Position numbers and translations under genes: made by a program | From: Polytrichum commune | Taxonomy: Eukaryota; Streptophyta; Polytrichopsida; Polytrichales; Polytrichaceae | DNA: 64,000 nt | NCBI GenBank assembly: GCA_950295325.1 | Contig: OX485804.1 | Location: 22,568,001-22,632,000, forward strand | Direction: 5' to 3' | Shown here: piece by piece, positions 7,560 through 61,063 of the stretch | Position numbering within the stretch: position 1 is the first letter of the stretch | Layout: each line of letters starts with the position of its first letter | The notes under the pieces: generated by a model | Seen by the model: the letters and a program-made list of their open reading frames with translations, nothing else | Database searches by the model: none | What the model was told of the DNA's origin: nothing

Positions 7560-8513
7560 AATTAATGAATGCGGCGACGAGCTTTTGGGGACAGTCCCAT
7601 GCATTTCATCCGTCGCAGCGGACACCCCGGCCGCCAAACCTCATTGCTCGCTTCAAGCTCGCAAGCCAAGCCAAGGCAAGCAGCCCCCAACGGCACCCTG
7701 CCAGCCAAAACCCATAAAAAACCTCCAACTCTATCTCCTCCCTCTCCCATCCTCCATTCTCCTCTCCGCCTTCCTCCTCCAAAACCACGCACAAAACTCC
7801 CGCTAATCTTCCCCCAGCATTGTCCCCATACCCAAATGCAAATTCACAAACACAGATGCAAACACCCACAAACAACCACTAACAACCGCAACCGCAATCG
7901 CATCCCAGTCGCGCAGGGTTTTGGGTTTAGGCCAAGCACGGGATCCAGCTTGGTGCTTGCTCTGATCGGTGGCAGACGTGAGGGCGATGGCCATGTAGCA
8001 AACATCAGTTCGTTGCAGAAGATGGCAGGCAGCCAGGCCAGGACAGGCAACGCCAGGCAAGGCAAGGCAAGGCAAGGGGGAGGTAGTGTGATGAGATAGA
8101 GAGATGACGGTGCTGATGTCGCATCATCCTGTGCCCCCATTTAGCTTCGGGGGCAAGCCGTCTCCATGCACATTCATCCGCGAGCCTTCTGCATTGTCTC
8201 GTGCGCAATTCTTGCTCAGAGTGGCGGAGTTCGAGTTTGTTGGTGTTTGTAGTGTTTTTGGTGGTTTTGGGGGGTTGGGGTGGGGTGAATTGTTGTTGGA
8301 AGTAGTGTGATGTGGAAGTGTGTCTGTGTGTGTTTGTGTTTCTGGGGGTGTGTTGCTGGGGATCGGGTGGAGGAGTGCCAGGAGGAAGAGTGCTGATTGT
8401 TGGAAGCTTTTTGTGTGTGTTTTTGCGTTGGGTTAGTTGAGAGAGGGAGAGAGAGAGAGAGAATTGGTTTGTGTAGGTTTGGTTTTCGGTGAGGACAAAA
8501 GGGGAAATCTGGA
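7560..8513 (+). promoter_or_regulatory. GC-rich promoter / 5' leader of the zinc-finger gene
   Basis: Base composition shifts sharply to GC- and CpG-rich at about 7560 and stays so to the ATG at 8514. This is typical of a plant promoter plus 5' untranslated leader. It contains a short (GGCAA)n tandem run at about 8058-8077, C/T- and CA-rich tracts, and a GA repeat near the start codon. Several overlapping ORFs on both strands here reflect low stop-codon density, not proteins. I could not place a TATA box or transcription start. Confidence 0.5.
8437..8462. repeat. (GA)n tract in 5' leader
   Basis: A GA-repeat lies about 55-75 bases upstream of the ATG at 8514. GA/CT tracts are common in plant core promoters and leaders and can bind GAGA-binding BBR/BPC factors; a role here is inference. 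Confidence 0.6.
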
Positions 8514-11500
8514 ATGGAGGTTAGCAAGAGAGCAGCAGGAGTGATGGGTGGGGCTTCGGAGGGGAGCCCCAGGCAGATGAAGCTGTCCGAGACCTACCGC
8601 ACCGTGAAGAAGAATTCGGTGTTTGGAGAGAAGAAACAGGACTTCTTTGGTTACAAGGAGGAGGTTGGAGGGGGAGGAGGAGTGGCGCAGGCAGTTTATT
8701 TGGCACCTGGTAGATCTGTGAATGTGGAGGCGGGACATCTTCCTTTCATGAGCAACACCGTGTTGTCATCCTTCCCTTCTCCTCTTGGAGTGCAGACAGG
8801 TTACAGCACCTTCCCTGGAGTCCCTCGCAAAGGGCAACCACCGAGTTTGGGTCTCAAAGGAAATACCAAGGTGGAACCAATGCCAAACCTTATGTTCGGA
8901 AATGTGAAAGCGGAGCCCGTTGATCATCTACCCCTCTTCTGCTCGCCCGCTTTGGCAGGCATTCCGAAATTGGGGAAAGGCTCCAAACCAGAACCCTCTC
9001 CTGTTGTCCCCAAGGCCAATCCTGCAGTCTCGGTGAATCTTAAGCATTACGTGGGCCCCGAACAGGCAGACGGGATGCCAAAGGTGGCGCCCTTTTCGTC
9101 TCCGCATGGCCTACCACTCGAGAGGATGAAGCATCAGCAGCAAGAGTCGGTTGCTGCTGCTGCTGCTGCTGCTCCTCCTCCTCCTCCTCCACTTGTGATG
9201 GTGCTGGAAGACGATTCGGTTCCTGGGAAAAGAGCAGACACAGCAACAGCCACCGTTGCTGCTTCTGCTGCAATGGGGGGAGTCAAAGGGTTGGGTTATG
9301 TGAAAGTGGAACCGGTCGAGAAGTTGTTCACTGCCTTGGACATGTTCCCGGGAGGAGGGGGTACTGATGCATCAAGTAACCCACTGCCTTTTGCATTAGC
9401 GAAGGAGCTTCCACCACTGGCAGAGATCGTTGTGAAGGAAGAGAATTACCCGGTGGGTGAAGCCTCCCCCATCCCCAACAACAAGCTGATGACAGCACTG
9501 GACATGTTCCCTGCTGGAGAATTGGGTCCCCAAGAGGCACATCATCACAATCATCTTCGCGGTGGACTGTCATCACCGAACTTGATGATGAGTACTGACA
9601 CTCTGGGTGATGATGCGTCAGAGACTTTTCATGGCATCATTCGTCGTGTTAAGAGCGAACCAGAGGCTGGTGTTGGTGGTTTTGGAGAGAAAGCAACAAC
9701 ACCTGGGTCATCCTTGGAGAAAATTACAAAGGACATCAAAGTGTCAGAGATCATCCAGAACGCAGTCGCACGTGCGGAGTGTCCACCAATACGCACAGAT
9801 AATCTCCCAACCGGAGTGTTTACCGATCGCAAAGCATTCCAGCCTGCACCTCCACCTCAAGTGTTGTCTGGAGAAGAGTCTGATGAGTATAGCTCATCAT
9901 CGACAGAGTCTGATGACACGGATGATGAAGAAGAAGAAGGTCTGTCCAAAAAGGAGAGAAGAGACGGAATCAACGAGGCGATCGAGAGATCACTCCAGCA
10001 GAAGCGCCAGAGGCCACAAGAGGATGTGGAGAAAAAGCACAGGAACAGCAACCCAGGCCGGCGTGTGCAGGGTGGCCGGCTGTATGACTCATCATTTGGC
10101 ATCACATGCCATTGGTGCCGACAGAAGACGGTGGAGCCTCACGTGAAGTGCAGGGAGTGCACCATCCACTACTGTGGTCCTTGCCTACTTAACAGGAACG
10201 GTGAGAATATCAAGGAAGAGTTGTGCGATGGTGTGAGATGGCTTTGTCCCAAATGTAGGAACGGCTGTGGGCCAGGCTGTGACAACTGGTATGTGGCCAA
10301 ACTCCACTTCTGCATCTTTATTTTATTTTATTTTAATTTAATTTTTAACTCATGTGGTCACTTGATCCTGTAGCAGAGCAGCATATGGGTTATCAGGTTC
10401 TCAGTTGAAAAATTTACATTCCATCTATCCTATGCGTGAAACTTCCGGTGAGTGAGGATGTGTGGAAAGTGCGGAAGGTTTGCAGTCCTTGTAGTAATTG
10501 CGTCTCCACATGATCAGAGTAGATGGAGTCTTGTGAACTGTTGTCATGGTTAGTATTGTTCAAGCTGTGATAACGGGTATGGGTCAAAGTCCACGCCTGC
10601 AGCTGTTCATTTCACGTCCATCTACCATAGGTATATCATATATTTGAAACCTCCGCCATTTGAGGATGTGTGAAAAGTAAGGAAGTTTTTTTCTTGGTAA
10701 GGAGTGCAATACTCCGAGTTGCAGTGCTTGTGGTAACTGCATCTTCGCATGATCAGAGTAGAGTCTTGTGATTATTTGTCATGGTTAGTGTCGTTCAAGC
10801 TGTGACAACTGGTATGTGGTCAAACTCCACTTCTGCATCTTCTATCTTATGTGTTCACTAATCCTGTAGCACAGCAGCATACGCGTCAGTGCAAAGCACT
10901 ATCAGGTTCTGAGTCTTAAGCAGAGAGGTTCATGTTTGTTGAAAAATTTGCATTTCATCTATTCTATCTTCAAAACCTGCAGCATTTGAGGAATTTTTTT
11001 CTAGGTAAGGAGTGCAGTACCCGGAGTTCCAGTTCTTTTAGTAACTGTATCTTTTTCATGAGCAGAGTAGTGTGGTGAAGTGTTGCCATGGTTTGTTCGT
11101 TCAAGCTGTGACAACTGGTATATGGTCATAGTCCATTCCTCCATCTTTTAATGGTGGTCCCAACTTATGTGTCACTGATCCTGTAGGAGAGCAGTGTCAG
11201 TGCAAGACACTATCAGTTTCTGCGTTTTGAGCAGAAGTTTATGTCTGTTGAAAAAGCTGTATTTCATTATATCTTATCTCTGAAACCTCCAGCGTTTGAG
11301 GGTGTATAGAAGTGCTGAAGATTTTTTAAATAAAAAAGAGTGCATTACTCCAGGTTGCAGTCCTTCTGGAATGACTGCATCTTCACATGATCAGAGTAGG
11401 GCTGCCAAAGCCTTGTGAACTGTTCTCATGGTTAGGATGGTCGAAAAGTCCTACATGTGCTTCTAAACAAGGGCACATTAGGATTATTGCACTCCTATCA

Positions 11501-16363: not shown

Positions 16364-18454
16364 CAGTCTAACCTTGATAATGTCACCCTTGTTAATGGGA
16401 CACCTTGATACTGTCACCTAAAAGTTTGAAACCGATTTTCTTAGTGTAAAACTCCCTCGTTATTATCCCTATCACCCTTGTTAATGTCACTATTTTTTTC
16501 CAAAATCCGTAGTGTAAATGTGATAATATCAAATATGGATGGATTGTATGTGATGGTTGGATGTATGGATTGTATGTGATGGTTGGATGGACATATTGTA
16601 GTAGCCAAAAGGGTCATGAGCCACCCCTGTGATAAATGCAATGTTATTCAAAGGGTCATGAGCCGCCTCTGTGCACCAACCCTGAACGGTGCTGTCTATA
16701 CACGGCACTCAAAGGTGTTGTCTTTGACGGTGCTGCCAAGACTTCTTGGCCTCTATGCACCCCACCTTCCGTCACATGTGTTCACCTATGTGTCTTTGAG
16801 GGTTTCAGCTTGTGTGAAGTAATTTAGGATGTTAAGTTCTACGGTTTAGCTGAGCTAGTACAGAGAAGTGTCGACTTAAGCTAAATTAGTTCAATTGGTT
16901 TGCAATGTAGAAATCTCAAGATATGTGGCACGGTCTTCACTGTTTCTATAGTCAATAGTCGCATAGGAGAATCTAGTAAGATCATAAGTGTTAGCCGCTC
17001 ATCCTAAGTGGGCATTCAATTAGGAACAATCTTCTAGATTAGTTAGTCAAGCTCATAAGTAGAAACAATCTTCTAGGTAGGTTAGTCAAGCTCATAAGTA
17101 GAAACAGTCTCCTAGGTATATAATGAACCATTGGGGCTTTGCACTAATATCTCAGGGAAGGAGCGATTGAAGCTTGTCTTCATTCACAAATCAACACGTC
17201 CCAGATGCTTTCCTCGGAAGTTTGATCCAAATAGTATAGTACACTATTATTCTAACAATTCAGCCTGGATGAATGGTGATGTTTTTACACATTGGGTGAA
17301 GAGTGAGAACCGAAGAATGGCATTGCAAGATAGAAAAATTTGCATTATTATGGATAATGTAGGAAGCCATGATATTCATGGTGAGGTCAAAAAAGTTATA
17401 GATGGATTTAATGCGTTTGTACTCTCCCATATCACTATCTTGTTTCTTCCACCAAATGTGACTTCAGTTGTTCAGCCTTTGGATCAAGGAGTGATTGCAG
17501 CATTCAAAATGTGCTATAAACGCAAGCTTGTTGCCTGGACTTTGCAACAAATTGATAACTCAAATGAAGATTTGGGGAAACTGAATGTTGATCTATTTCA
17601 AGCAATGCTATGGTGTGTGGCGGCATGGCATGAATTAGATGATCAAACCATTAGAAATTGTTGGAGAAAGTCTGCCATATTGCCTGCAGCGTGGAATGCA
17701 GATATCAACAATTCTGATGAACGTATGAAGTCCAAAATGGAGGAAGCAGCTTTGGAATTGGGCAATCTCATCGCCGCATTGAATTTGGGTTTGGATGTTG
17801 AAGGCAAGCCTATAGAAAAGCTTAGTCCTTTAGAGTACATAAACATGGAAGGTGAAGATAATTTTGAGGTGGAATATTCTACTGAGGAGCTTGTGCAATT
17901 AGTGCAAGATGGCGAACATGTACTTGATTCCATGGAAGAAGACCCATTGATTGTTGATAGCAATGATGATGAGTCTAAAGTAGTGAAGCTAAGCGATGCA
18001 CAAAAATATGCTAAAGATGTTTTGAATTTTATGGCTAGCCAAGGTTCTCAGATTTTCAACACTCATGAGTTGTTAGGAATGGAAAACATCCATGACAAAC
18101 TCATTAGAATTGGTGTTGGACATTTAACATCACTAAAACAATGTGACATTAGAAGCTTCTTTGTCTCTAGTGAGAGGTCTTTACCTGATCTCAATGACAC
18201 ATTGTGATGTGCTCATGTTGTTATTCACAATTTTGAATTATATTTTACATTCAAAAACATTGAAGTCTTGTGTTTGTTTTTTTTTTTAATTTTTTTTTTA
18301 CATTGTAATTTCATTTTGATTTTCTACCTTTTTTTTTTGATAATATCACATTATGCACAAATCTTCAAAATGTGACATTATCAAATATGTCACACCTTGT
18401 TTATATCACACTTTATGGTGAAACGGATGGTGTGATATTATCAAGGTTAGACTG
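16364..18454. mobile_element. Tigger/pogo-type DNA transposon (Tc1/mariner superfamily), 2.1 kb
   Basis: The left end CAGTCTAACCTTGATAAT and right end ATTATCAAGGTTAGACTG are exact inverted repeats. Both are flanked by TA (16362-16363 and 18455-18456), the target duplication of this superfamily. The words (TG)TCAC and TAATGTCACC repeat just inside the left end. A transposase remnant fills 17131-18207. Internal short direct repeats at 16533-16588 and about 17030-17116 mark later local duplication. The intact ends suggest a fairly young copy, although the gene is broken. Confidence 0.92.
17131..18207 (+). pseudogene. Tigger-type DDE transposase remnant, N-terminally truncated (358 codons)
   Basis: The frame carries the C-terminal half of a pogo/Tigger transposase: KSTRPRCF (20-27), SAWM (44-47), IIMDNVGSH (72-80, second catalytic Asp at 75) and FLPPNVTSVVQPLDQGVI (105-122, third catalytic Asp at 118), then an acidic tail. 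The N-terminal helix-turn-helix DNA-binding region and the first catalytic Asp are absent. Between GKERLKLVFI and HKSTRPRCF the usual connecting segment of the family is missing, which points to an internal deletion. A family member would normally be about 450-550 residues. It sits inside a 2.1 kb element with intact ends, so it probably cannot move itself but could be mobilised from elsewhere. Confidence 0.85.
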
Positions 18455-18513: not shown

Positions 18514-18834
18514 CCAGTGTATATGTTTGACAAAGTGTTTACAAGTTTTTGACATTTGACACGCCAAAACTTGCATAAAAATAAAATGCACGTCAATTGC
18601 CATGCATGATTTAGATTTTGACATATAGTGTGACTTGTTAAGAAAAAAACCATGTGTCAATTGACATTTTAGAAATTTGAAATGACACATACTACTAGGC
18701 ATGTGACATTGAAGTGACATTTTAGAAGAAAATGTAGATGTCAATTGACATTCATTTTCGTTTTTGAAAACGTCACTTGACACTTTAGATTTGAAGTTGC
18801 ATGTCAAATGAAATTTGTCAAACATACACATTGG
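18514..18834. mobile_element. MITE with CCAGTGTATATGTTTGACAAA ends
   Basis: Left end CCAGTGTATATGTTTGACAA and right end TTTGTCAAACATACACATTGG form an inverted pair of about 22 bases. The same six bases, TCTTGC, flank both sides, consistent with a target-site duplication. The interior repeats the palindrome GTCAATTGAC several times. A second, inverted copy lies at about 31201-31535. Confidence 0.85.
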
Positions 18835-18920
18835 TCTTGCCCTTTAGGATGGTTGCCAATGAAAGGGTCTTGTGAAAAATTGCTTCTTATAGATTAGTCA
18901 TTAATTCATTCAATTGGGTT

Positions 18921-19918
18921 CCACTACAGTATGGTTTATGGTATCTAGTGTCACTTACTATTCGGAGTTACGCATTGCTATAACATTTTATTGTCGATGT
19001 AATTTTTTACCAAATAAAGATGTTAATGCTATATATTGTTCTCCCTCTTTAGTATGACACGTTTGGGAAACACAAAAAAGTTGTATTATCGAGATGTTGT
19101 CTTCTCATTAATATGACAAATGGCAAAAAGTTGTTGTATTATTGAGGAAATACGAAAACATAAGTAATATGGGCTTAAAAATATATATAGAGTTTAAGCA
19201 ATATAGGCGGTATGAAATGATAACTTATAACTCCAAACAAATACAAATAATCTCAAGAACTCTTGAAATAGGAGTCCAAAGATCTTTGGTGTTGCCTATC
19301 CAAGTTAGCAATTGTCATCTTATCTAAATTTCCTACTAACTTTTGCACACTAATAATTTCATTAACACCAAAATATAAAGAGTTCTCTAATGAGAAACTA
19401 GACAATAATGATGCATGACGTTTAGCATCAAGATACTGGTGATACTATATCACCATGAGTACAAGGCAACATACTTGGAAGGAGGCCCTCTAACCCTAAG
19501 CATGTCCATTCTACACTAGTAACCCTAATTATCATTAACTTCCCAATGATAAGTGAAGTTCCCAAGTAGTTCCCAAATGAAAATGGGTGTATTTTAGATG
19601 TACGTAACATAGATGAAAAGAATTTCAGCATTAACTACCTCTTTAATATGACAAAATGGAGATTTTAAATGTCGCATTATCGAGTGTTGTAATCATATAA
19701 AAGAGGGAGTTTTAAACTAAAAAGTTTGGTCTCGCAAAACTATGTCATAATATCAAGGGTGTTGTATAAACGAGTGTCATATTAATGAGGTTAGACCATA
19801 GTGTCCAAACAAACCAATTTTGCCTTTGTTGGTAAGAAATGAGATCCATAGTAGAAAGTTATAGCACAATGTAAATCCAAATAGTAAATGACATTAAATA
19901 CCATAAATGGTGTAGACT
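18921..19918. mobile_element. MITE of the CACTAAATA family, split by a nested insertion
   Basis: The left arm (18921-18985; TATGGTATCTAGTGTCACTT, then GGAGTTACGCATTGCTATAA) and right arm (about 19850-19918; TTATAGCACAATGTAAATCC, then AAATGACATTAAATACCATA) are long inverted repeats. They match the arms of the compact element at 31590-31826. The ~760 bp between them is a different element at 19036-19798. Confidence 0.75.
19036..19798. mobile_element. Pogo-like non-autonomous element nested in the 18921 MITE
   Basis: Ends TTGTTCTCCCTCTTTAGTAT and ATATTAATGAGGTTAGACCA form an imperfect inverted repeat, each flanked by TA (19034-19035 and 19799-19800). The right end and its neighbour, with ...AAACTCCCTC..., resemble the left end of the Tigger element at 16364 (GTCTAACCT-ATAATGTCAC). 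It is thus probably a deleted relative. It carries no transposase. Confidence 0.7.
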
Positions 19919-20790: not shown

Positions 20791-21854
20791 GAGGGCCACT
20801 TTTCACTATGGGCAAGGGCCATGACCATGACATCGACGGCTGTGGAAACTCATTCAAAGGTTGTACCATGGAAATTTGAAATAGAAATTTGATGTGGTCT
20901 TAGGCCTTCAAGTGTAGTGTAAAGTACTATGCAATTGGGCTCTTTAACCCTTAATTTTCTGGTGCATATTGTGGTTTCAATAGATCATCTAAAAAGTAAG
21001 CCATCTAGAGCTCAATTTTTATTGTGTGTAAACGAAAAGTTGTTGCTAATCAGTTTATGATCACATAATACGGTAGAAATATTTAGAATTTTTTTGGTGA
21101 TGTGTTTAAATTTGATTTTGAATAATTAAACTTCAAGAAATTACGATAAATATATATAATAAAATTACAATCCAAGCTTTCAAGATTATACTAAGAATAG
21201 ATATATAATTTGAGGTTAGAAAAAGAGTCCATAGAAAATTGACAATTTTGCATCAAAATAATATGACAAATGTTATATATAGAAATGTATCAACAAAGGA
21301 AAATGTTAATTCTTGACTTCAAAATTTTTTTGTGTACAATTATCTTTTCATATTGGAATGGGATCATTGCCATTGACAAGAAAATTTCACGAGGAACACA
21401 ATGATACATGTTGTGACCTTCCACCTTCTTTTCGGATGAGTTTGCCTTCAAAGGCCATTCATAAGCCCAAAATGGGTCTCTCAGGAAGGTAAGGGCTAAG
21501 TGAATGCTTTTTCAATATAAATTCTATCAATGTGCCCCCCTTTACATAATGAGAGCTTTTTAACAAATCAAGGGTTGCGAGATTTTGAACTCCCACAGTC
21601 TCCTGCATTTGAATTAGATCCACCTCTTTGAGGTGGACTCAACACAAGATATAGTAAACCTTGAAACAATTATCATTGCATGCCATGGAGAACTCCATGT
21701 AAGTTTGTAATATCCCTTCAAACTTCCTTGGTTCTTTAGGCCTTCAAGCACTAGTGTAAAGTGAAGTGGGACGGTCGCAACATTTCCACCAATAGGGGAT
21801 TTTAGATATCAATGATCATGATGAGCCCTTGAGCCCTAGTGCAAAATGCCCCGG
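20791..21854. mobile_element. ~1.06 kb relative of the GGGCCACTTCACAC element
   Basis: The left end GAGGGCCACTTTTCACTATG with GGCAAGGGCCATGACCATGA faces a right end containing ATCATGATGAGCCC-TTGAGCCCTAGTGCAAAATGCCCC. Subterminal blocks (GGCCTTCAAG-TAGTGTAAAG at both ends, GACGGTC and CCACCAAT near the right) match the elements at 15786-16283 and 33091-33204. The AT-rich interior has no ORF of note. Confidence 0.65.
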
Positions 21855-22415: not shown

Positions 22416-23889
22416 ATGGTGGCCACCGCAACCATGGTGGGCGCCATCATGGGATTGAGTTGCCAGCTCTACTCAAACGGTGTCCGCAAGCTCCCTCTCA
22501 TGCGCCGTAAGCATCTCCCCTCAACTCTCAATCGCATGTATATACGCATTCATTCGTTTCGCTTCTCTTTCGCTCAATCTCTACAACCTCTCTGACAATT
22601 CGTTGCATTTTGGCACTACCATTTGGTTGGAGCCCATTGTTGCAAAGTTTCTGCTATTTTTGATAAATAGGGTTTAGGGTTAGGTTCTGTTGTCGCATAA
22701 TGCGGTTTAGGAGACGAGTGGATTAAGGGGGTGACTTATAAGTAAGGTCTTAACCCGGATCCAATGGGAAGTCCAAGGGTAAGCTGCCTAAGTCTGGAAT
22801 ACTGCTCGGATGGGCGACCTTCGGAGCACTTGATTTCTGGTGCACCCTACCACCCAATTGAAGTGGGAGTATATGAGTGAACTGGATATTTGCAACCAAC
22901 CATGTGGGAATCTAGGGGCTTGCCCTTGGGTAAATATTGCTGAATTAATTATTTTGCCTAAGGCTGGAATAGTACTCGGCTGGGTGACCTTCAGAGCACT
23001 TGATTTCCGGTGCACCCTTCCACCCACCTGTAGTCCACCCAATCATAGTGGGAGTATTCGGTTGAACATGATATTTTGACCAACCATGTAGGGATCTAGG
23101 GCTTGCCCTTGATAGAGATTGATAGGTACACAGCGACTTGTCTGAGCATGTATGTTCAAGGTGTTCACCTTTGAAAGGAGGATATTTGGGGTCCATATGA
23201 TTCTTTGATGCCCATTTTGAGACTACATAACATATAGACTTAGACCAACTTGAATATGAAGGAACACCATAGTTCATGCTGGTGGCAGTATGGGATTCAT
23301 CTCTTCTTTTGAGTGGATTGATTGCACTAATCTAGTTTTTTCTGATGTTTGTTCTTTTGCTGGTATCAGGTCATGTTTCTCACACGAGAATGTGAGAGTG
23401 TGCTCTGGTTTGTAAGACTGTGAATGAGTCTCTTTTCTGTGTCCAATTGTGTTGCGAGGGTAATGTAGTTGCTTGTGGGAGACTATGCAGATCCATGGGA
23501 GCATGTCATCGCGATTGGGTTGGGGAGTGCGTTTGGGAATGCAGTGGCCAATTGGGAAGTTAAGTTGCAAGAGGATCTAGACAAGAAGTTGCAAGAAGTT
23601 TCATCTGCCAACAAGAAACGTTTCATTGGTACATATGATCTCTGCTTTGTACCCTCTGCTTTCCACATTTGTGCTTTTGGGGTTTAACCTACCTTCAGTT
23701 GTGTTTTGGGACATCTTCTTTGTGTAGTAGCTCTTCATGTGGTTAGAAAATGTCAACTGTTATCAGTCTTTAGGCATTTGTTCCTTGCTAACTCTGGAAA
23801 CAAATGAGCTCAATTATCTGCCTCTGTTACAACCCTGAGTGTTGTTATTGTACATGGTTGCAGGCACCATGAGAGCTGTGGAGGATTGA
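22416..23889 (+). CDS. Small mitochondrial complex I subunit-like protein (NDUFB4/B15-type), three exons
   Basis: Exons 22416-22506, 23491-23628 and 23864-23889 join in phase (1 and 1) with GT-AG borders to encode 84 residues. It begins MVATATMVGAIMGL, then YSNGVRKLPLMRHPWEHV. It has a hydrophobic segment at about 36-51 and an amphipathic acidic/basic tail (KLQEDLDKKL... ANKKRF). This layout (short N terminus, YSN..RKLP.MRHPWEHV, one membrane-associated segment, LQEDLD..L) is that of a small plant protein found in mitochondrial NADH:ubiquinone oxidoreductase, in plants usually equated with B15/NDUFB4. The subunit name is from memory and less certain than the family match. No single ORF spans it; intron 1 (984 bp) carries 5S-derived repeats and a telo-box-like site. 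Confidence 0.75.
22669..22685 (+). promoter_or_regulatory. Telo-box-like AGGGTTTAGGGTTAGG in intron 1
   Basis: Two TTTAGGG-type units lie about 160 bases into the first intron of the complex I-like gene. In plants the telo box (AAACCCTAA) near transcription starts marks many translation and mitochondrial genes. The match is visible; function is inference. Confidence 0.4.
22729..22848 (+). repeat. 5S rRNA-derived sequence, near full length (120 bases)
   Basis: The segment has the size of 5S rRNA and its landmarks in order: CCCGGATCC, GGGAAGTCCAAGGGTAAGC, AATACTGCTCGGATGGGCGACC (interrupted matches to box A and box C of the internal promoter) and the terminal GTGCACCCT. The first ~25 bases and the region after GGGCGACC are diverged, so it is not a functional rRNA gene. 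It lies within an intron. It could be a pseudogene, the 5S part of a Cassandra-type TRIM or a 5S-derived SINE. Confidence 0.75.
22849..23125 (+). repeat. Second 5S-derived head plus repeated tail (tandem unit, ~170-210 bp)
   Basis: After the first 5S-like copy comes a tail (CCACCCAATTG, AGTGGGAGTAT, GACCAACCATGT-type, GGGCTTGCCCTTG). Then a second 5S 3' half follows at 22956-23018 (GTACTCGGCTGGGTGACCTT and GGTGCACCCT), and then the same tail again to about 23115. The 5' half of the second 5S copy is missing or replaced. The head-tail-head-tail order shows that 5S sequence and tail were duplicated as one unit. Confidence 0.7.
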
Positions 23890-25739: not shown

Positions 25740-26060
25740 CCTAACCAGTTACCGTTAATACACTCTAAACTCCGTAATATCACGCTTGTGGCAACCAAAG
25801 TGCACGGGATATTAAGGAGGTATGTAGTGTTAACATGAAGGCGTATGTGATAAGAGACAATTGATGATGCACGTGACATTATGGAAAACATATAGTCAAC
25901 GTTGCAATAATGAAAATAATCATAGTGATGCGTGCCAGCGTGCGGTTTGGATTCTTTGGTGGTTTATTTTAATGTCAGACCCGTGATACATGGGAGGGAA
26001 ATGCGATAGTGAGGAGTGATATCTAAAATGAGGACATTTGTTCTCTAGGGTTTGGGGGTA
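25740..26060. repeat. Distant copy of the 45-46 kb hairpin-bearing repeat
   Basis: Matches the repeat at 45830-46130 over about 300 bp. It includes CTTGTGGCAACCAAAGTGCA, GATATTAAGGAGG, GACATTATGGAA, GTCAAC(G/A)TTGCAATAAT and TGGTTT-(G)A-TTCTTTGGTGG. It has the same internal foldback (about 25768-25820), diverged. Confidence 0.75.
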
Positions 26061-29000
26061 TAAGAGAAGGAGTGGCATTGAGGGGGTTGATATTATGGAG
26101 TTTAAGAGTGTAACACAAATCAACAAGAAATCATAACATTATCAAGCATCTACATGATGGTGTCTTTTGAAAGAAAGAGTATGCAATTAAAAAAACTTTG
26201 ATAATTTAATTTATAGTTGCTTGTCAAGAAGTACATAGTACATAATACACAACTTGACTGCTCCCCATAAACGGAGAATCCTTGAATCGAAGGAGAATCA
26301 TGCTCATGTGATGCTTGGTCCCGCATAACACACCCAAGGAGTTGTGAAATGTTATGATATGCCCATGGAGTCTCAAGGCATTATAGAAACGTGGCTTTAA
26401 GGCCAAGGATTTGTGGTGTCTTCATAAACTCATCCATTAGGAAAGTGAAAACAGAACAATTTTTTGTATACATTTGAGAAAAATGGACATTTATATATAG
26501 TTCAACTTTGAAAATGATATCAGAGTTTCTAATTTAGATTGGTGGGGTCTAACTTGAATGAATTGGCCCTCAATCTTTATAGAGGATTTGTTTTTACTCC
26601 TAGGGGTACACTAAATTTTCATGTTTGTAGCACGTGGGCGCACAAAATGGGTATTAACTATGACTATCATATACAAAAAAGAATAGGACTAGGATTTTTT
26701 TATTTTTTTATTTTTTTCTTCTTCTTTCCTCTTAGCAAGGTATATTATGGGTATGTTATGCCCTATGGAACATCAAACCTATAAATAAATATACAACAAG
26801 GGTGTAAATGTATAGGAGATTATAGAACGTTAGGTAGGGGTTGAGCTAGAGATAATAACCCAAATTCTCCAAAATTACATCCAATCAATGAATGGCTCTC
26901 CTACCGCAACCCATGTCACCAACCAGACACCCTAGGGATTGAGGTTTGGTTTTGAGGTTTTGTGAGGTCTAGAGCAAACATCAAATCTCAAGTGACTCAA
27001 CGTGGACTTATGATTTCATCAACCCACATTGTGGTAGAACTGAAAACAGTAATCGCGTTGACTACAATGACATTTATGATAGAGACCAATTTGTATGAGT
27101 TACATCCAATGAATGAAAGAGGCCTCCCTAACTTCATCAAACAACAAAGATGTATATTAATTAATGAAGGGTGCACCCTTGGGTTTGGATTGTAACTTCT
27201 TTCATCCGAGATAAATGACTTTACATAGCTGTGGCTTTAGGATTGCATTGTGTATGGTATTTAGTGTCACTCACTCAATAGTGTCATGGTTGCTTACCCG
27301 TTACTTAGTATTGAAGCTTATGTATATTTACAATAACAGAAAACACATGCTCCCATTCAGTGTACTCACAAAGAAGAAAGTAAAATCAAACTTAAAAAAA
27401 GAATGTAGAAAGTGTATTGGTGGAAATATGAGATATAAATAATTTAGTATTTAACTTTATTCTTTTATGGTTTAAAGAGAGATCAAAAGGGTCGGTTGCC
27501 AACATCTGGTGGTTAACCTCAAGTTGTCAAGTCACTTCTTTACTTCACTCTTCATTTCTCACTCCTTAGGTAGATGAGGCTAATATGGTTAGCTTCCTTA
27601 ATCGGATACTTGTTTTTGGTTCCTAATCGGCAGTATAATTGTTTTAATTTGGTTTGTGGTAATACATGATGATTTAGTTGCCGCCCTAATGATATTTGGG
27701 TTAGTCACGTTTGCAAAAGTCAAACTATACCCACCATCCTTCATAATGAGGAGTGATATTCATTGAGCTAAGACACACTTGATTTTTGTGCCCAAGGTGG
27801 GCAAATTAGAAGGTGGCATGTGGCTGTGAGGTGCCAACCAACTTGTATTATGGGTATTTTATAATGGAAAATAATAATTCAGCAACATTTTGTATTACAT
27901 GTGACCACTTTACAAACATGACAAAGGCCAATATTAGCATTAAACTTGGTTTTCATTGGCAAATGACTCATGTTGAACTTGCTAATGATATTTTCCACTT
28001 ACACAACATTAAACGATTCCAACACCTTCCTCAACTCCAATTTCAACGATTTCAAATTGTTTGATCTTGATTTGCAATTGCTAACGTGCTCAAGCTTCTA
28101 ATGCTTGAATCCATTGGCTGAATGATTCTCCAAAAGTAGGAGGTGTCCATATTAGCCTTATCTACCTCATCTACATTTCGCATTTTACAAGTTGTTCATT
28201 CAAAGAATCTCACTTGGATAACACAATCCCCCCTATCTATACCCTGACACATGTACAACATGGTGCTAATGCCTCGCCTAGCTCAAACCTGACAACTTAT
28301 TCATTGCTAGCACCTCCCCCATTAATACCACCCACTACAATCCACACAAATCCAACATACATTTCATCAAATTCCACTTATGCTTTGATTGTGACCTCAC
28401 ACCAACAACACATCGCAAAAGAACTTAATTACCAACTATTGTTCAATACATTGGAAGATGCCTGATGGAATGTCAATCTCACTATCCTTAGGATTGTCAT
28501 CCGGGGAGGCATCCACACCAACTCTATTAAGAACATATCCAACAATGTTACATCGACCCATGCATGGATGCAACAAATCCACTTAGTAGCCATTGAATAC
28601 CCCCCCCCCCTTCCCTAATTTATGCTCAATAAAGGTAGACTAGAAGACCCCCCCCCCTTCATCCACCTAAACATCACAACAAGGATCTATGCCCAAGTAT
28701 CAAAATCCCAAAGATGAATAATATTGTAAAAAGATGCCCAAACCAACCCACTTAGCTTAGTTAAAGGGATAGACAAGAATCAAATTTAACACACGTTGAA
28801 ACCAATAAAGACACCTCGCCACCAAAACACTCAACCTCAAGGCGCCCACACAAACACACACCACACTAATATACAACTTAAAAGACCACCATGGGGGCAA
28901 GGCCAGGCCCCTTCTTTACCCAATTACTAAAAAGGACAACCTTCGACATGTGGCAATAACACTTGTCCCATAGCCATGCTCCCTAACCCATTTCATATTT

Positions 29001-31200: not shown

Positions 31201-31535
31201 CCAGTGTGTATGTTTGTCAAATTGTAACATTGTATGTTTCACAAATTTCATTTCATGTGCAAATTAATGTAAATCCAAAGTGTCACCTCACATTTTCAAA
31301 GACAAATTTTGAATGTCAATTGACATCTAGATTTTCTTTTAAAATGCCGTCTCATTGTTACATGTTCAGTAGTACGTGTCATTTCGATTTCTAACGTGTG
31401 ATTTTTTTTCTTCACAAGTCACAGTACATGTCCATATTCTAAATTATGCGTGTCAATTGATGTGCATTTTTTTTGTGCAAAGTTTGGAATAGTTGCACAA
31501 TGTCCGAATTTGCGTTCAGTTGACACCTCCAAAGT
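31201..31535. mobile_element. Second copy of the 18514 MITE, inverted
   Basis: Starts CCAGTGTGTATGTTTGTCAA and follows the reverse complement of the element at 18514-18834 for over 280 bp, including TGTCAATTGACATCTA and ACAAGTCAC. The far end is degraded, so the boundary is approximate. Confidence 0.8.
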
Positions 31536-31589
31536 TCTTGATCATCCTCATCATGCAACAATAATCTTCTAAAATGTGTTCTATTTGTA

Positions 31590-31826
31590 GGGTGGTACAC
31601 TAAATATAGTATTTAGTGTCACTTAGTATTTGCGATTACGCAATGCTTTATTCATTTACTGTAAATCTCATATTTTACCAACATATGTCAAATTGGTTGT
31701 TTGGACATTATAGATTATTACCAACTTTACTTGGTAAAAACTTACATTAATACGAAAAAAATAGCATTGTGTAACTCCAAATAATAAGTGACACTGAATA
31801 TCATATTTAGTGTAGTTGCACCTACC
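31590..31826. mobile_element. Compact MITE of the CACTAAATA family
   Basis: Inverted arms of about 55 bases: left (TACACTAAATATAGTATTTA then GTGTCACTTAGTATTTG and TTACGCAATGCT), right (AGCATTGTGTAACTCC then AATAAGTGACACTGAATATC and ATATTTAGTGTA). If TA is taken as the target duplication, the element runs CACTAAATA...TATTTAGTG, as in Tc1/mariner-derived MITEs. The terminal word is itself a small palindrome. Confidence 0.88.
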
Positions 31827-33090
31827 TTGAGTAACTTTTACATTGTGGCCAAAGGAGATAATTTCATGTGTTTCCAGGTTATGTAAGTAAGGTGGATGGC
31901 TTTGTATTTTTTGTATTTTGTATTTTTTATTTTTTTCCAACTAGCCCACTTCTCTTAGGATACATATCACGCGATTAGTACGAGATGGTTTGCAAATTTG
32001 AATTAAGCTTGCATACCTTTATTCATACCTTTTAGAGCTCATATGGATATCTTATTCATTATCATAGTGAAGATTCATTTGCTTTGTAAAATGGTCATAT
32101 GGCCCCTTCCCCCCATTGTTTTGACTATTGAGCTTAGAATGGTTATCATATTTTGAGCATGTAGTCCAACCTCTTTTAAACACATGTCTTTTTGGTGACC
32201 ATTATTGGAGCCACACCAAACCAAATACCACTCAATTATAAGTCTAAGTTTCAGATAAGTAAATGAATTGGGCACAATGTCTACCGTACACATATCATGT
32301 ACATTTTTATTGTTGTTCCACCACTCCACTAAACTTCTAAACATATTAAATGAATACTAGATGATATGCAATTTTTATGGAGGACCAAGGGTGAGCTCCA
32401 AATAGTAAGCCACTTGCCCATCAGATTCTAGTGGAAATAAGGATAAAGCCGCCCAAATGTAGATGAATTGTGGTGGGGCCAAGTGGGTACTCTCATCTTG
32501 TCAAATCCGCCCCCCCCCCTTGCTTACCTCCTTCTCTAGGTTAAAACCTCTTCCTCTAGGTTAAAAACTGGTCTTCAATCCTTCGGTGAACAATACTATT
32601 AGGTTAAAAAGTGCCTTAGTGGGTGCGTGGAAGTCTAGAAGCTTGTGTTCACAACCCTCCGCATTCTAGTAGGCCACCAAAATGTGGTTGGTTGATGGCT
32701 TATACTTATCTACATGACACCTCAAACCCACTATTATCTAGAATGTAGTGGGCAAGCAATCTAAAAGGAACTCATCCTAAGCAACACTTTGATTTGCATT
32801 AATCAAAGTTTCTATGAAATTTTCAACACAATTTAAAAGTACCAAGACCATGAGTCCTATTATGAAGGAGAAGCAACTGTAGTAATGGATTGGATTATCC
32901 TTACATGGTGTTAACTTCTTACATTAACCATCTACTTTCTTGGGTATGCTTCAATATTGGACGGTTGGGGCGAAACAACATGTACACTGATTCCTTGGAG
33001 GCAAGGGTTTAGGCATCCAACAAGGAATGAGTGTATGGATTGGTTCACCCAAATCAATTTTGGACTAGCTTATGAAATATTGGTCCCTTT
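31827..33090. other. Gene-free stretch with old repeats
   Basis: No gene recognised. Sequence at about 32396-32470 (TAAGCC-CTTGC, TAGTGG-AATAAGGA) and 32600-32720 (CACAACCCTCC-CATTCTAGTA) recurs, diverged, at about 34160-34230 and 34500-34560. A C run occupies 32510-32519. Confidence 0.4.
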
Positions 33091-33204
33091 GGCCCTCAAG
33101 TTGTAGTGTAAAGTGAAGTGGGACGGTCTCAACAATTTCTATGAACAACAAAATTTAGATTTGAATGGTCACGGACCCTCTGTCTCTAGTGTAAAGTGCC
33201 CCTA
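33091..33204. mobile_element. Right-end fragment of the GGGCCACTTCACAC element family
   Basis: CCCTCAAG-TAGTGTAAAGTGAAGTGGGACGGTC, an AT-rich segment, then AATGGTCACGGACCCTCTGTCTCTAGTGTAAAGTGCCCCTAA in interrupted form match the right ends at 16169-16283 and 21737-21854. No left end was located. Confidence 0.7.
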
Positions 33205-36020: not shown

Positions 36021-36185
36021 ACTTGTGCAGATGGTGAGGACGATGGCGCCACAGTTTCGTTGAAAATTAGAGCACCATTTTCAGTTGCAAAACTGAGATC
36101 TTAGCCTGCCGAAAACCATCACGGTCGATCTCAACCAATACATCACCAACACTCGGGTTTCTAATTCTGTTTGAAGAAGTTGAAG

Positions 36186-39100
36186 ATGGCAAATTTCACG
36201 GTGCCCTCGGGCTACCTTAACAAGGGGGGAGTGGAACCGGACTGGCTGAACAAGGGAGATAACGGATGGCAGTTGGCGGCTGCGACGTTGGTAGGAATCC
36301 AGTCCATGCCTGGGCTGGTTATTCTCTACGGCAGCATCGTGAAGAAGAAATGGGCTGTGAACTCTGCGTTCATGGCACTCTACGCATTCGCAGCGACGTG
36401 GCTGTGTTGGGTGGTGTGGGGTTACCAGATGTCATTCGGTGAGCAGCTTCTGCCCATCTGGGGTAAGGCAGGGTCAGCTTTGAGTTACAAGTATTTGTTG
36501 TCACAAGCTGTGTTGCCATCCACCGCGCATTACCACAAGGATGGCACCCTGGAGACAGCTGCCACAGATGCCCAGTTCGGGATGGCCGATATGGTTATCT
36601 TCCAGTTCTTCTTCGCCGCGCTCACACTCATCATGCTGGCGGGTGCTGTGCTCGGTCGGATGAGCTTCCGTGCGTGGATGATGTTCGTGCCTCTGTGGCT
36701 CACCTTCTCCTACACCGTGGGAGCCTTCAGCATGTGGGGCGGTGGATTCTTGTGGCAGTGGGGGGTCATCGACTACGCTGGCGGCTATGTCATCCATGTC
36801 TCCTCCGGTGTCGCCGGCTTCGTCGCTGCTTACTGGGTATGTACATTGCCCACCTCACACTAATTTGAAAAGAGTACTGTGTCTGTTGAAGGTATGTGGG
36901 CTTGTACATTGCATACCCCAAACTTTGAACGATCTCTGTTGCATCCACACCCAAAACATTCAATATGTATGTTTGCAGTGGATACAACAGATAACTAGCG
37001 ATACATTCAACATCCAACAGGTACCTATCGATGTCTGGGCCGTGGATCCACACCTCCACAGTCAAAAGGTAGCTGTTGCAGGTGTTTGGGTAGACATTGC
37101 ACACCCCGAACTTTGAGAGCTATCTGTAGCAAGTTCTTGGGTATGAAAGCACAGCCCAGACTTGCAGAGCTCTCTGTTGCAGGGTTTTAGTATGCATGCA
37201 CCGGTCCCCGAAACTTTATAGGTCTCTGTTGCAGATGTCTGGGTATGCATGCACACCCCAAACTTTATAAGGACATAGTTTTAGGTGTTTGGGAATACGT
37301 CGCACACCCAGAACTTTCATGAAATCTATCTGTTACAGGTGTTTGGGTATGAATGCACAGTCCAAACTTCGAAAGCTCTCTGTTGCAGGAGATTGGGTAC
37401 GCATGCACATCCCAGAATCGATGGGTCTGTGTTGTGGATTTTGAAGCCCCTCATTGATGTGATCTTCACACATTTATCTCATGCGGATTCTGACGAGCGG
37501 TAGTAGTAGTACCGATCAATGTGTGTAGTCGACTGTGACAGTTGTTTGAAGCTGGTGGATCCAGATTCAGGAAATGATCAGATTTTGAATGTGTCTCGAA
37601 TTATATCACTTGTATCCAAATTCACCATAGAAAGTGGTTCGTCTACCACCATCCTAGTTATCGGGACAGTGGTGATGAACTACTTCATGGCCCTGTGTGC
37701 CCTAGAGCACCCACTAGTTGCCTCCGCACTTTCCCTAAGTAACCCGGCTGAAATGATACCTCAACAGAATGGCTTCAGTGGTGTAACGCCAGCCACTGAG
37801 CTAATTTGAAGGTATGGGCCAGTCTGCGTTTTTCCTGCTGCATTGGAACTTTGCATGTATCAAGCTTGCAATGGTGGCTAATCGGTGTTGAATGTGTTGC
37901 AATGGATTTTGCTGCTGCAGGTGGGTCCGAGGCTACCGAAAGACAGGGAACGGTTCCCCCCCAACAACATGCTGCTGGTGCTCACGGGCGCGGGGCTGCT
38001 GTGGTTGGGCTGGTCTGGATTCAACGGAGGAGCGACATTTTCCGCCAACTTGATTTCGGGCTTAGCCGTGCTCAACACCCATGTGTGCGCCGCCGCCAGT
38101 CTCTTGACATGGACCACGCTGGACGTCATTGTGTTTGGCAAGCCGAGTGTCATCGGTGCGGTGCAAGGCATGATGACAGGACTTGTGGTCATCACACCCG
38201 CAGCCGGTAAGCCACAATGCGTGCATCACAGCTCACATATTGCACTCACATTCATCAAATTCTTCAGTATTACGGCACTGGCCCACTGCCGGTTGGAGTA
38301 GAGTCACCACTGATATTATTGAATGAATCCTGCATTTTGTCCGTGTACGTGCCGAGAGTAGTGCCATGTGACATGTGAATATAGAACCAAGTTATAACTT
38401 GGAATTTTCTGTGAAGAAGGATTCCTGGTTATCTGAACAAAACTGGGAGCTTGGTGGAATTGATCTGTTTCGTTCACATTAGAAGGAATATCTCTTAGAT
38501 TATCAACTCTGACCTGATTTTGATGCTTGAAGAATGTAACTGCGGAATGTGGGAGTAATCTTTTAGTGTTGGCGGGTGAGAGAAACTGACTTATCGGCTT
38601 TTCGGTGACCTAATTTTGAGGTCTGGAGAATGTAACTTGCGGAATGTTGAGGTAGTAACCTCTGTAGTGCTGGTGGACTAGAAATTGTGACATTCCATAC
38701 CCGGTGAAACCTATTTTTGAGGTCTGAAGAGTGTAACTTCGAGATGGTCAGGTAGTAACCTCTCTAGTGTGTGGAATTGTTGATGTTGTGTATGCAGGTT
38801 TTGTGCCGGCATGGGCCGCATTGATCATGGGGATCCTAGCTGGGAGCATTCCATGGTGGACGATGATGGTGCTGCACAAGCGTTGGTGGGTGCTCCAGCA
38901 AGTGGACGACACCCTGGGGGTAATCCACACGCACGGAATAGGCGGCATCCTGGGGGGCATCTGCGTGGGCCTGTTCGCGGAGCCAGCGCTGTGCGACTTA
39001 ATGGAGGTCGCGGTGACGAACTCCAATGGGGCATTCTACGGCGGCAACGGAGGCATTCAGATCGTGAAACAGATCGGTGGCGCCTGCTTCATCGTAGCCT

Positions 39101-45059: not shown

Positions 45060-45844
45060 ATGTGAGAGCAGCATGGGAACTCCAACCGCACCTCCAGAAT
45101 TTTTGAGAGATGATGGGATGGAAGACCTAGGTGTTGGATGAGAGTGTAAACCTTGCTTTCATTTGCAAGGGCACGAATGAGGGGATCCGTTCATCCAAGG
45201 CTCGGTCTTCGATTTGACGGTTCCTACTACTAACGAAATATGAAACTGAATTGATAAGTGGGAGACCCGAGTGACGGATGAAGTCATATTAGGATCCAAA
45301 CTTGCTTTCATCCGTTAGGTACCAATGAGGGGTTGGTCACACCAGCCAATTCTGGCACCATCTGTCGACATCTCCAGTTGTAATAGTGTGAAAAGTGGTG
45401 GGCCAACATTTATTTCTCAACATAATCCCCCATCAATTCCATGACTTGAACCAGGCGGAAACTTTGGTGTGATCGGGGTATGAGGGGTTGATCACACCAA
45501 CCAGTTCAAACACCATCCATTAGCATCTCCAGCTGTAGTAGTGTGAAAAGTGATGGGCCAACATCTATTTCTGAACATAATCCCCAACAATTTCATGGTT
45601 GGAACTGGACCTAAACTTTGGTGTGATCGGGGCATGAGGGGAGTCCGTTCGCCCAATGAGTGGTTTTTGACTTGACAAGGTTTCTATTACTGACAAAGGT
45701 GAAACTAAAACAATAGGTGGGAGACTCGGGGGATGGATGAAGTTGGATGGAAATCCCAAACTGTGCTTTCATTTGCTAGGTAAGAGTGAGGGGTTCCTCC
45801 ACCCAAGCACGGTCTTTGACTTGACGGTTCCTTTTCCACTCTAA

Positions 45845-45896
45845 CCTCCCTAATATCTTGCTTGTGGCAACCAAAGTGCACGTGATATTAAGGAGG
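45845..45896. repeat. Foldback within the 458-bp repeat, copy 1
   Basis: CCTCCCTAATATC (45845-45857) pairs with GATATTAAGGAGG (45884-45896) with a single G-T-type mismatch, around a 26-base loop containing TTGTGGCAACC. Equivalent foldbacks lie at 46304-46355 and about 25768-25820. Confidence 0.7.
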
Positions 45897-46303
45897 GTTT
45901 GTAGTGTTGACATGGATGCACGATAATAGATAATCAATGTAACATGTGACATTATGGAATAACATAAAGTCAACATTGCAATAATGGCAATAATAACGAT
46001 GATGACAATGTGTTGCGTGCGAGTGTGTGGTTTGAGTTCTTTGGTGGATTAATTCAATATCAAAACCCATGACTTATGAGAGGGAAATGTAGCAACAAGG
46101 AGGGAGATTTAAACTAAGCACATTTATTCCCTTCATGGTTCTTGTTATTGACAAATGGTGAAACTGAAACAACATGTGAGAGACCCGGGGGACAGATGAA
46201 GTCGGATGGAAATCCCGAACTGTGCTTTCATTTGTTGGGTATGAGTGAGGACTTCATCTACCCAAACATAGTCTTTGACTTGACGGTTCCTATTACACTC
46301 TAA

Positions 46304-46355
46304 CCTCCCTAATATTTTGCTTGTGGCAACCAGAGTGCGCATGATATTCAGGAGG
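46304..46355. repeat. Foldback within the 458-bp repeat, copy 2
   Basis: CCTCCCTAATAT pairs with ATATTCAGGAGG; the loop keeps TTGTGGCAACCAGAGTGC. It lies 459 bp from copy 1. Confidence 0.6.
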
Positions 46356-46930
46356 GTATGCAGTGTTAACATGGAAGCATGATAATAGAGAATTAGTGTA
46401 ACATGTGATATCATGGAATAACATGAAGTCAACATTGCAATAACAACGATGATGACAACATGTTGCATGCGAGCGTGTGGTTTGAGTTCTTTGGTAGATT
46501 AATTCAATCTCAGAACCCATAACATATGAGAGGGAAATGTGACAACAAGAAGGGTGATTTAAACTGAGCACATTTGTTCCCTTCACGGGTCCTGTTATTG
46601 ACAAAAGGTGAAACTAAAACAACATGTGTGTGACCAGGGTGACAGATGAAGTCGGATGGGAATCCCAAACCTTTGCTTTCATATGCCGGGTATGAGGGGC
46701 TGATCACACTAACCAATTCAAACATCATCCATCGGCATCTCTGGCTGTAATAGTGTGAAAAGTGATGGGCCATCATCTATGTTTGAATAGAATCCCCAAC
46801 AATTTCATGGTTGGGACCGGACGGAAAGTTTGGTGTGATTGGGGCATGAGTGATGAGGGGGTCCGTCCACCCAAGGCTGTGTGGTCTTTGGCTGGGTGGT
46901 TCCTATTGCTGACAAAAGTTGAAACTGAGA

Positions 46931-59638: not shown

Positions 59639-61063
59639 TCAAGGACTTTCCGCCAGGAAAGAAGGAACTTCTTCATCGCAAATGTAACCATCACAAGTGG
59701 CAGCACTGTCCCATTCGTTGCGGATCCGTTGAATGTCATCAGAAAATGTGGAGCCGCGGGTACCAATGAACACAACTCCCATTGCAGCAATTGCTTTGTC
59801 CAACATTGACATGACTGCAGGATCGGACTCTAAACCCTTGCGCCATAATAGAGCATCCCACTTCGCTTCTGGTTCATGCGACATGGTCCTCATTACGAGA
59901 GGTGCAGACACCAGTGCCTTCAGCTCAGTGATCTCACTTTCGGATGCATCTGTGCTCATAAAGATGATGGTTGTGTTTGAGCGTTGCAGCTGCTTTTGGA
60001 TGCATCTGGCCACCTGCGGGACAGGGTAGAAGCAACTAGGCGATTGCCTGTTGCAGAACACCAAGAAGCCATGCCGCCGGAAATGGAGGGACAGAAAATT
60101 GGAGCCCATGTAAGTCTGCACAAACCTCTGGGCAGTGAGGACGATGAGCCGGTGTGGTTGTACAAGGTTTTTGCATTTATGAGAGACTGGAAGTGATTCA
60201 GTGTCTGGAAGATTGGCGTAGTATAAGTCACCCACTGCGATCACTTCGTCCTCGCAAGAAAATCTTGTCAAAATCTCGTTTGCCAGGATGTGGGAATTTG
60301 GAAAGGAACTGGATTTGAGGTCATCGCTCGGCCATGCATCTTGCCGGTTGCCGAATGTAAATCCTAATGTTTCCCACTTCGCTTGATGGTCGCTGTCGAA
60401 GTAACAGTTTGGCATATAGCAGATGAGCTTATCGATGTGCAGAGATTTGTTCCTCGTGCGCTCCTCAAACTCCTCGAAGGATATCACTCTGTTATCTCCC
60501 AAACACTTCTTGATGTGGGCCATGTCCAAGAGATGTGCGTACTTGTAGTCGAGACTCTCATGCGGCAGCACGAGCGTGCGGTTTAAGAGAGCTCCAAACA
60601 ACATGTGCTTCTGCAAACATATCAGATGGTTTGTCACCTGACCTGAATTGCATAACATGATCAAGAACCTCCCCTCATTCAATCGCCATGCGACCTCTTC
60701 AGCAGGTCTTCCAATCTCTTCTGCGCTCAGTTTCTTGCAGCCAAGAGAATCCACCTGCACCTGCAGATTAGCATTGCTCTTGGAAAGAATGCGTTGCAGT
60801 TCCTGAATCTTCTTAAGCTCATCCACCAGGTACTTCTCCTTTTGGGCTTCTGTGGTGGAGTTTAACGTTGCCAGTAGCTGTTCCTCTTGAATTTTTAAGA
60901 ACGAGAGGGCTTTCACATTTGCCTGCCATGGGGTTAGAGTTTCGGTATTGGAGTACAGATGTGGAACTGGAACCCACAGCCAATGCTGCAAGGAAGTCGT
61001 TAAGGAGAGCGCCAAAAGGATGACCGGCAAAAGGAGGAGCACCACAGAACATCTCCTATCCAT
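59639..61063 (-). CDS. Plant O-fucosyltransferase family protein (O-FucT, OFUT23-like), intronless
   Basis: A single uninterrupted frame of 474 residues. A signal-anchor segment at about 5-23 (VVLLLLPVILLALS) predicts a type II Golgi membrane enzyme. A coiled-coil-like stem spans about 55-105. The catalytic region has GRFLIMLCNSGQVTNHLICL (131-150), NRTLVLPHES, FLSLHFRRHGF (323-333, the basic HxRR donor-binding motif), FYPVPQVARCI, FMSTDASESE (368-377) and GSTFSDDI (437-444). These are motifs of the GDP-fucose protein O-fucosyltransferase superfamily, which moves fucose from GDP-fucose to an acceptor. The closest plant group I recall is O-fucosyltransferase 23; its acceptor is not known to me. 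NxS/T sites lie at 68, 161 and 205. Lack of introns contrasts with the other large genes here. Confidence 0.9.
   Translation of the reverse strand: MDRRCSVVLLLLPVILLALSLTTSLQHWLWVPVPHLYSNTETLTPWQANVKALSFLKIQEEQLLATLNSTTEAQKEKYLVDELKKIQELQRILSKSNANLQVQVDSLGCKKLSAEEIGRPAEEVAWRLNEGRFLIMLCNSGQVTNHLICLQKHMLFGALLNRTLVLPHESLDYKYAHLLDMAHIKKCLGDNRVISFEEFEERTRNKSLHIDKLICYMPNCYFDSDHQAKWETLGFTFGNRQDAWPSDDLKSSSFPNSHILANEILTRFSCEDEVIAVGDLYYANLPDTESLPVSHKCKNLVQPHRLIVLTAQRFVQTYMGSNFLSLHFRRHGFLVFCNRQSPSCFYPVPQVARCIQKQLQRSNTTIIFMSTDASESEITELKALVSAPLVMRTMSHEPEAKWDALLWRKGLESDPAVMSMLDKAIAAMGVVFIGTRGSTFSDDIQRIRNEWDSAATCDGYICDEEVPSFLAESP

Follow-up and report, generated by a model that had tools for sequence, protein, structure and literature searches.

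SINEs of the SINE3 type, which are headed by 5S sequence, are described in animals and a fungus. In plants, the described 5S-bearing TRIM is Cassandra, and the available portions of two reports on it give it a 5S core of about 70 bp, with three boxes, near the middle of the LTR (PMC7215508, PMC10853983). The same portions describe tandem arrays, some of them with incomplete end units, and a primer-binding site (PBS), TGGTATCAGAGC, which in ferns lies 8 nt from the 5S sequence; they give LTR lengths close to 200 bp for Polypodiales and Piperales and report the element as absent from gymnosperms (PMC7215508, PMC10853983). In the accessible part of a TRIM survey, which found TRIMs in 43 plant genomes, 5S sequence is reported in no TRIM family except Cassandra (PMC4717578). 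The Ajax elements of nemerteans, in the part of the source available, have retained only the promoter region of 5S (PMC10886601).

We have analysed a 5S-like locus in a 64-kb stretch of DNA from Polytrichum commune (the window; all positions are counted from its first letter). An earlier note on this DNA, here called the original prediction, had placed a tandem 5S rRNA-derived element in an intron at this locus. Below we ask of the locus how much of it is 5S, how its two units are related, and how it compares with the systems above.

Results

Host gene

Three exons joined by reading (Table 1) encode a protein of 84 amino acids, which matches four distinct solved-structure chains labelled B14.5b/NDUC2. 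The best match, 7a23_i (E = 2.6e-27), spans residues 3-77 of the 84. We take the matched structures to be those of plant complex I. Two of the four chains are also or solely labelled 'Excitatory amino acid transporter', which we take as a mislabel by the depositor, and at E 0.001 the protein matched no Pfam family. The protein alone points to a land plant or a close relative as host, and its divergence gives an impression of a host outside the flowering plants. What the original prediction had called a complex I-like gene is identified by these matches as that of the complex I subunit B14.5b/NDUC2 (NDUFC2), and its intron 1 contains both units in the sense direction.

Table 1. Features of the NDUFC2 locus and of the two 5S-like units in its first intron (positions in the window)
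Feature	Position	Strand	Basis
NDUFC2 coding exon 1	22416..22506	+	Reading; structure-chain match
Intron 1 (GT..AG) of NDUFC2/B14.5b, holding both units	22507..23490	+	Reading; joined exons match
Claimed 5S 1-27 part of head, not supported	22729..22754	+	6374/18258
Unit 1 5S-like core (5S 28-93: A box, IE, C box)	22755..22820	+	47/65 identical; ranking
Unit 1 weakly 5S-like 3' part (5S 94-120)	22821..22848	+	230/18258
Unit 1 tail, common to unit 2	22849..22939	+	Pairwise alignment; repeats D2, D3, D5
TTTT at unit 1/unit 2 border, first possible Pol III stop 3' of unit 1 core	22952..22955	+	List of T runs of at least 4 in 22701-23489
Unit 2, with 5S 65-93 core at 22962-22990, then tail	22955..23121	+	Alignment
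15-nt insertion in unit 2, resembling adjoining CCACCCA	23019..23033	+	Alignment gap; sequence
NDUFC2 coding exon 2	23491..23628	+	Reading; structure-chain match
NDUFC2 coding exon 3 with stop	23864..23889	+	Inferred by reading

Extent of the 5S similarity

The reference for the 5S alignments was a plant 5S sequence. None of 2000 dinucleotide shuffles of either proposed head (22729-22848 and 22940-23018) reached the observed 5S score, under each of two scorings. When the window was cut into 160-nt tiles at a step of 80 nt and both strands were scored, the three tiles with the highest 5S scores were those over the units.

Individual parts of 5S were then ranked against 18258 stretches of the window, taken every 7 nt on both strands with the locus included. 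The part 28-64 of 5S, at 22755-22791, was equalled or beaten by none of them, and the part 65-93 by one for unit 1 and by none for unit 2. The part 94-120 was equalled or beaten by 230 stretches (unit 1) and 786 (unit 2). At the other end, 5S 1-27 is at chance level, with 6374 stretches scoring as well or better, and under a laxer end-gap setting the count was 1806 of 4916 plus-strand stretches. By this ranking, clear homology to 5S extends over some 66 nt of core in unit 1 (5S 28-93, that is the internal control region and its upstream flank) and over 5S 65-93 in unit 2. The original prediction had described a 120-base 5S-like copy; its first 27 positions are at chance level and its last 27 are weak. 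A 5-bp complementarity (GGGTG/CACCC) between the ends of the claimed head was discounted as evidence, since 5S 1-27 is at chance level.

Within the unit 1 core, 47 of 65 ungapped positions are identical to plant 5S; by element, the identities are 10/14 in the A-box stretch, 9/15 in the IE stretch and 12/14 in the C-box stretch (80-93). The box A and box C remnants noticed in the original prediction are visible in comparison with plant 5S, whereas the pair by itself is unexceptional. Against the published Cassandra boxes (RGTTAAGYRHGY and RRRATRGGTRACY, with 15-25 between them), box A shows 4 mismatches, and each unit's box C shows 2. Pairs at this level (4 + 2) have 24 starts in the window, counting both strands, of which 3 fall within this locus. 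No exact box A with a box C of at most 3 mismatches was found in the window. We rejected the box pair alone as evidence of 5S on account of the 24 starts; the boxes are insufficient, and the 5S case depends on the longer alignment.

Covariance model and folding

The Rfam 5S model RF00001 (gathering score 38 bits) had no match at gathering score in the window, and no 5S match at E <= 10 was returned over the window or over 22715-22865 (unit 1). Its best score, from a search of 901 nt, was 14.9 bits (E = 5.3) at 22924-23013, with the 5' arm of the match within the tail of unit 1. The original prediction had named the lack of a 5S covariance-model match as one of the results that would speak against it, and at the gathering score there is no such match. 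Failure of RF00001 is, however, expected of a decayed partial core, because the model covers the whole 5S fold. The other Rfam matches, namely mir-1538, mir-1322, HYMAI and sR52 in the window and a ribosomal protein leader in 22715-22865, were far below their cut-offs and were set aside as chance.

Folding was examined in five head and tail stretches by energy only, the pairing of 5S helices being assessed by the covariance scans, and the energies are unremarkable: 17, 133 and 33 of 200 shuffles folded at least as well for the heads, and 158 and 186 for the remaining two stretches, with z from -1.31 to 1.55.

A 5S mimic exon occurs in plant TFIIIA genes, and the sense orientation of the units within an intron would suit a working intronic 5S RNA mimic that controls splicing. 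We consider such a role at this locus practically negligible in probability. No covariance score reaches threshold and the heads fold with ordinary energy, the host gene encodes a complex I subunit and no 5S-binding factor, and 5 of 29 core positions are different between the two units.

Two units in tandem

A gapped alignment of unit 1 (22785-22939) with unit 2 (22955-23121) spans 171 columns, of which 129 are identical, 22 are substitutions and 20 contain gaps. Twelve of the 22 substitutions are transitions, and 15 of the 20 gap columns form the single insertion in unit 2 listed in Table 1. The divergence of the units is about 15% substitutions (22/151). Self-BLAST of the whole 64-kb window recovered the pair at E = 8.7e-27, and an ungapped repeat search recovered it as repeat families D1, D2, D3 and D5; it was absent from the output of the tandem repeat finder at score 30. 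Head-to-tail doubling of a 5S-derived part together with its tail, as put forward in the original prediction, is borne out by this alignment. That prediction had the doubling consist of a second 5S 3' half and the same tail; the tail does recur and 5S 65-93 is clear in unit 2, whereas 94-120 is weak there. Compared with unit 1 as originally drawn, unit 2 is without the first 56 nt.

No third copy of the unit was found by self-BLAST within the window. The best match outside the pair joins 22932-22955, the AT-rich end, to 27868-27890 on the minus strand (22/24, E = 0.003), and all other window matches of unit 2 have E = 0.10 or weaker. We rejected 27868-27890 as a third copy, as it is AT-rich, has different flanks and does not extend into tail or core. 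A single local duplication would explain both adjacent copies, which are the only ones in the window. Searches with exact patterns taken from the end of the 5S-like part that both units share found no matches in virus and prokaryote contig collections, a result that is uninformative on plants.

Changes before and after the doubling

Departures from 5S that the two units share occupy 4 of 29 positions of the core (5S 65-93). In the part downstream (5S 94-120) they occupy 14 of 27 in the best one-gap alignment (Fisher p = 0.004 against the core) and 9 of 26 in the gapped alignment most favourable to 5S (p = 0.11 against the 4/29 of the core). Changes confined to one unit, or positions at which all three sequences disagree, amount to 5 in the core against 2 downstream, and the resulting contrast between changes before and after the duplication has p = 0.058 in the one-gap alignment and 0.16 in the alignment favourable to 5S. 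Since both units share departures from 5S, the unit that was doubled was an already diverged 5S core with its tail. The pattern is suggestive, in a way that depends on the alignment, of a promoter that may have been kept under selection before insertion and left to decay freely afterwards.

The main rival to a mobile-element origin has to be weighed against these counts. The units could be a plain fragment of a 5S rRNA pseudogene, derived from retroposed 5S RNA or from part of a 5S array whose spacer became the tail; it would have entered the intron, decayed and been locally duplicated with no mobile family involved. It is a serious alternative, though we hold it to be somewhat unlikely. It agrees with the presence of two adjacent copies only in the window, with a contrast between regions that loses significance in the alignment favourable to 5S (p = 0.11) and with the lack of mobile-element ends described below; 5S arrays, in the portions of the Cassandra reports available, likewise consist of 5S and spacer head to tail (PMC7215508, PMC10853983). 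A pseudogene accounts less well for a core that survives while the 5S ends are missing or nearly so, and for departures from 5S that the units had in common before splitting. Moreover, unit 2 is without the 5' half of 5S, which any intact array unit would have.

Search for marks of a mobile element

The tRNA-Met PBS TGGTATCAGAGC was sought after each C box, and the best sites have 5 mismatches both in 22829-23035 and in 22999-23205. Five mismatches is the commonest background value, obtained in 1046 of 2000 random stretches. The window contains 38 PBS-like sites with at most 3 mismatches, where 48.7 would be expected. The intron's one site with 2 mismatches, at 23361 (TGGTATCAGGTC), was dismissed as chance, being 240 nt past unit 2 and of a kind that is not enriched. 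No purine run of at least 9 precedes unit 2; a search of 22601-23489 found a single such run, at 23173, which lies beyond unit 2. No TG in 22600-22735 could be paired with a CA in 23090-23150 so as to give an exact 5-bp duplication; among 1000 random places, 6.7% offer one or more such combinations.

Direct repeats flanking the composite of both units were not found at 6, 7 or 8 nt exact, at 9/10 nt with one mismatch or at 12 nt with two; a 5-nt repeat occurs once, against 3.4 expected. None flanks either unit alone, at 6-8 nt exact or at 10 nt with one mismatch. The PBS, polypurine tract and flanking duplications that the original prediction proposed to look for thus came up empty (best PBS 5 mismatches after either C box; no purine run of at least 9 before unit 2; no repeat of at least 6 nt). 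As for the 3' A/T tail that it also named, an AT-rich stretch with TTTT lies at 22942-22955, after unit 1 only. The TTTT may have served as a Pol III stop.

These results bear on two more specific origins. If the element was a Cassandra TRIM, the units would be remnants of its two LTRs, or a tandem array with a truncated end unit. Cassandra is a described 5S-bearing plant TRIM that forms tandem arrays with some incomplete end units, and its LTRs of about 200 bp in Polypodiales and Piperales are near the length of the unit here, as far as the available portions of the sources go (PMC7215508, PMC10853983). We nevertheless judge a Cassandra origin unlikely, given that no PBS follows either C box, that the 8-nt spacing given for ferns in those portions is not seen, that the 2-mismatch site at 23361 lies 240 nt past unit 2, that unit 2 is preceded by no purine run of at least 9 and that the published box pair fits only with 4 + 2 mismatches.

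The second origin is a plant 5S-headed SINE, which would end in the AT-rich stretch and TTTT at 22942-22955. The unit does run from 5S core to a TTTT exactly at the border, and short T runs end some plant SINEs according to the part of the source available (PMC3747384). Against it, no target duplication was found around unit 1, unit 2 or the composite, and the 5' end of 5S, where the head should start, is unrecognisable. Among the matches listed, a search of open-licence literature found no plant 5S-headed SINE, which is weak evidence. We regard this origin as quite unlikely.

With about 15% substitutions between the units, short hallmarks may have been hidden by decay, and their absence is compatible with a Cassandra or a SINE origin. 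We assign the unit neither to Cassandra nor to the 5S-headed SINEs.

Other repeats and genes of the window

In the tile scan for 5S, the next tiles by score after those over the units, at 21761 and 21841, had 24 against 30 and 33, with 22 next. Both tiles reach into the end of a repeat with two dispersed copies, 21728-21852 and 33080-33202, which are 74.6% identical, lie on the same strand and contain GTAAAGTGAAGTGGGACGGTC; no relation to the 5S units was seen. Further dispersed pairs are 5951-6061/15785-15896 (91%) and 15094-15357/24643-24907 (78% identical). A tandem pair with a period of about 450 bp occupies 80-469 and 529-921 (92.9% identical), and direct repeats up to several hundred bases long overlap one another in a cluster at 45148-46926, to which a copy at 25756-26046 is related.

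An open frame at 17116-18207 (+) has a transposase-type DDE_1 domain (PF03184, E = 3.5e-34), as in pogo/Tigger-type transposons. The stretches 18564-19039 and 31231-31814 are related, with opposite orientation over most of their length, and 31596-31814 is also similar to its own reverse complement; the pair could be a MITE-like or foldback element. Genes recognised elsewhere in the window are those of a zf-4CXXC_R1 protein (PF10497) at 8493-10373 (+), an ammonium transporter (PF00909) at 36165-36863 (+) and an O-fucosyltransferase-like protein (PF10250) at 59639-61075 (-).

Discussion

The reading that we favour, at a probability a little above even, is that the two units are the decayed relic of a small 5S-promoter retroelement (a Cassandra-like LTR or a 5S-headed SINE) which was later doubled in place. 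The Cassandra and SINE origins weighed above are sub-cases of this relic, and their probabilities are not to be added to it. A relic of a promoter-bearing element is favoured because the clear 5S similarity is limited to 28-93, where the internal control region lies; a full 5S gene that had recently died would not look like this, with similarity in the core only. Retention of a promoter core is also what is described for Cassandra and Ajax, and in the one-gap alignment the changes shared by both units are fewer in the core than downstream. The same reading is weakened in that no mobile-element hallmark besides the core was found and by the restriction to two adjacent copies in the window, and also because the contrast between core and downstream part is lost in the alignment favourable to 5S (p = 0.11).

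If the units are such a relic, the element would have been transcribed by RNA polymerase III from the 5S internal promoter (A box, IE and C box). Its arrival would have been by retrotransposition at some time in the past, the copied unit being either a 5S-headed SINE or an LTR of a Cassandra-like TRIM. The second, 5'-truncated copy would then stem from a subsequent duplication in place, some 155-170 bp long, and both copies would have decayed since. No present function is apparent, and the units are spliced out with intron 1.

The unit might instead represent an undescribed plant family of 5S-promoter retroelements free of LTR marks, the counterpart of the 5S-headed SINEs of animals and fungi; we look on this proposal as quite unlikely. 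Were the unit one of many in the genome, it would extend the short list of 5S-promoter elements by a lineage-specific one and could help to explain how Cassandra captured its 5S. As a two-copy intronic relic it is mainly a note for annotation, the remains of dead mobile elements being an ordinary find. It also carries a caution: weak 5S similarity within an intron of a plant gene can come from the relic of a promoter core and not from a copy of 5S.

Set beside the known systems, the locus resembles 5S rRNA pseudogenes in its decayed 5S sequence and lack of visible function, and differs from them in that little or nothing remains of the 5S ends and a shared tail adjoins the core. With the Ajax TRIMs it has in common that the promoter region of 5S alone is kept, although the host of Ajax is an animal and Ajax, in the part of the source available, possesses LTRs, a PBS and 5-bp duplications (PMC10886601), whereas the search here found none of these three. 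The comparison with SINE3 is hampered by a 5S 5' end that is unrecognisable, and no target duplication was found, whereas the order of a 5S-derived promoter followed by a non-5S tail is the same, and TTTT stands at the end of unit 1. In contrast to Cassandra, no PBS, polypurine tract, TG..CA ends or target duplication were found at the locus, and both of its boxes are decayed. It is like Cassandra in its 5S promoter core of about 66-70 nt, its plant host, its tandem layout with a truncated unit and a unit length of about 200 bp.
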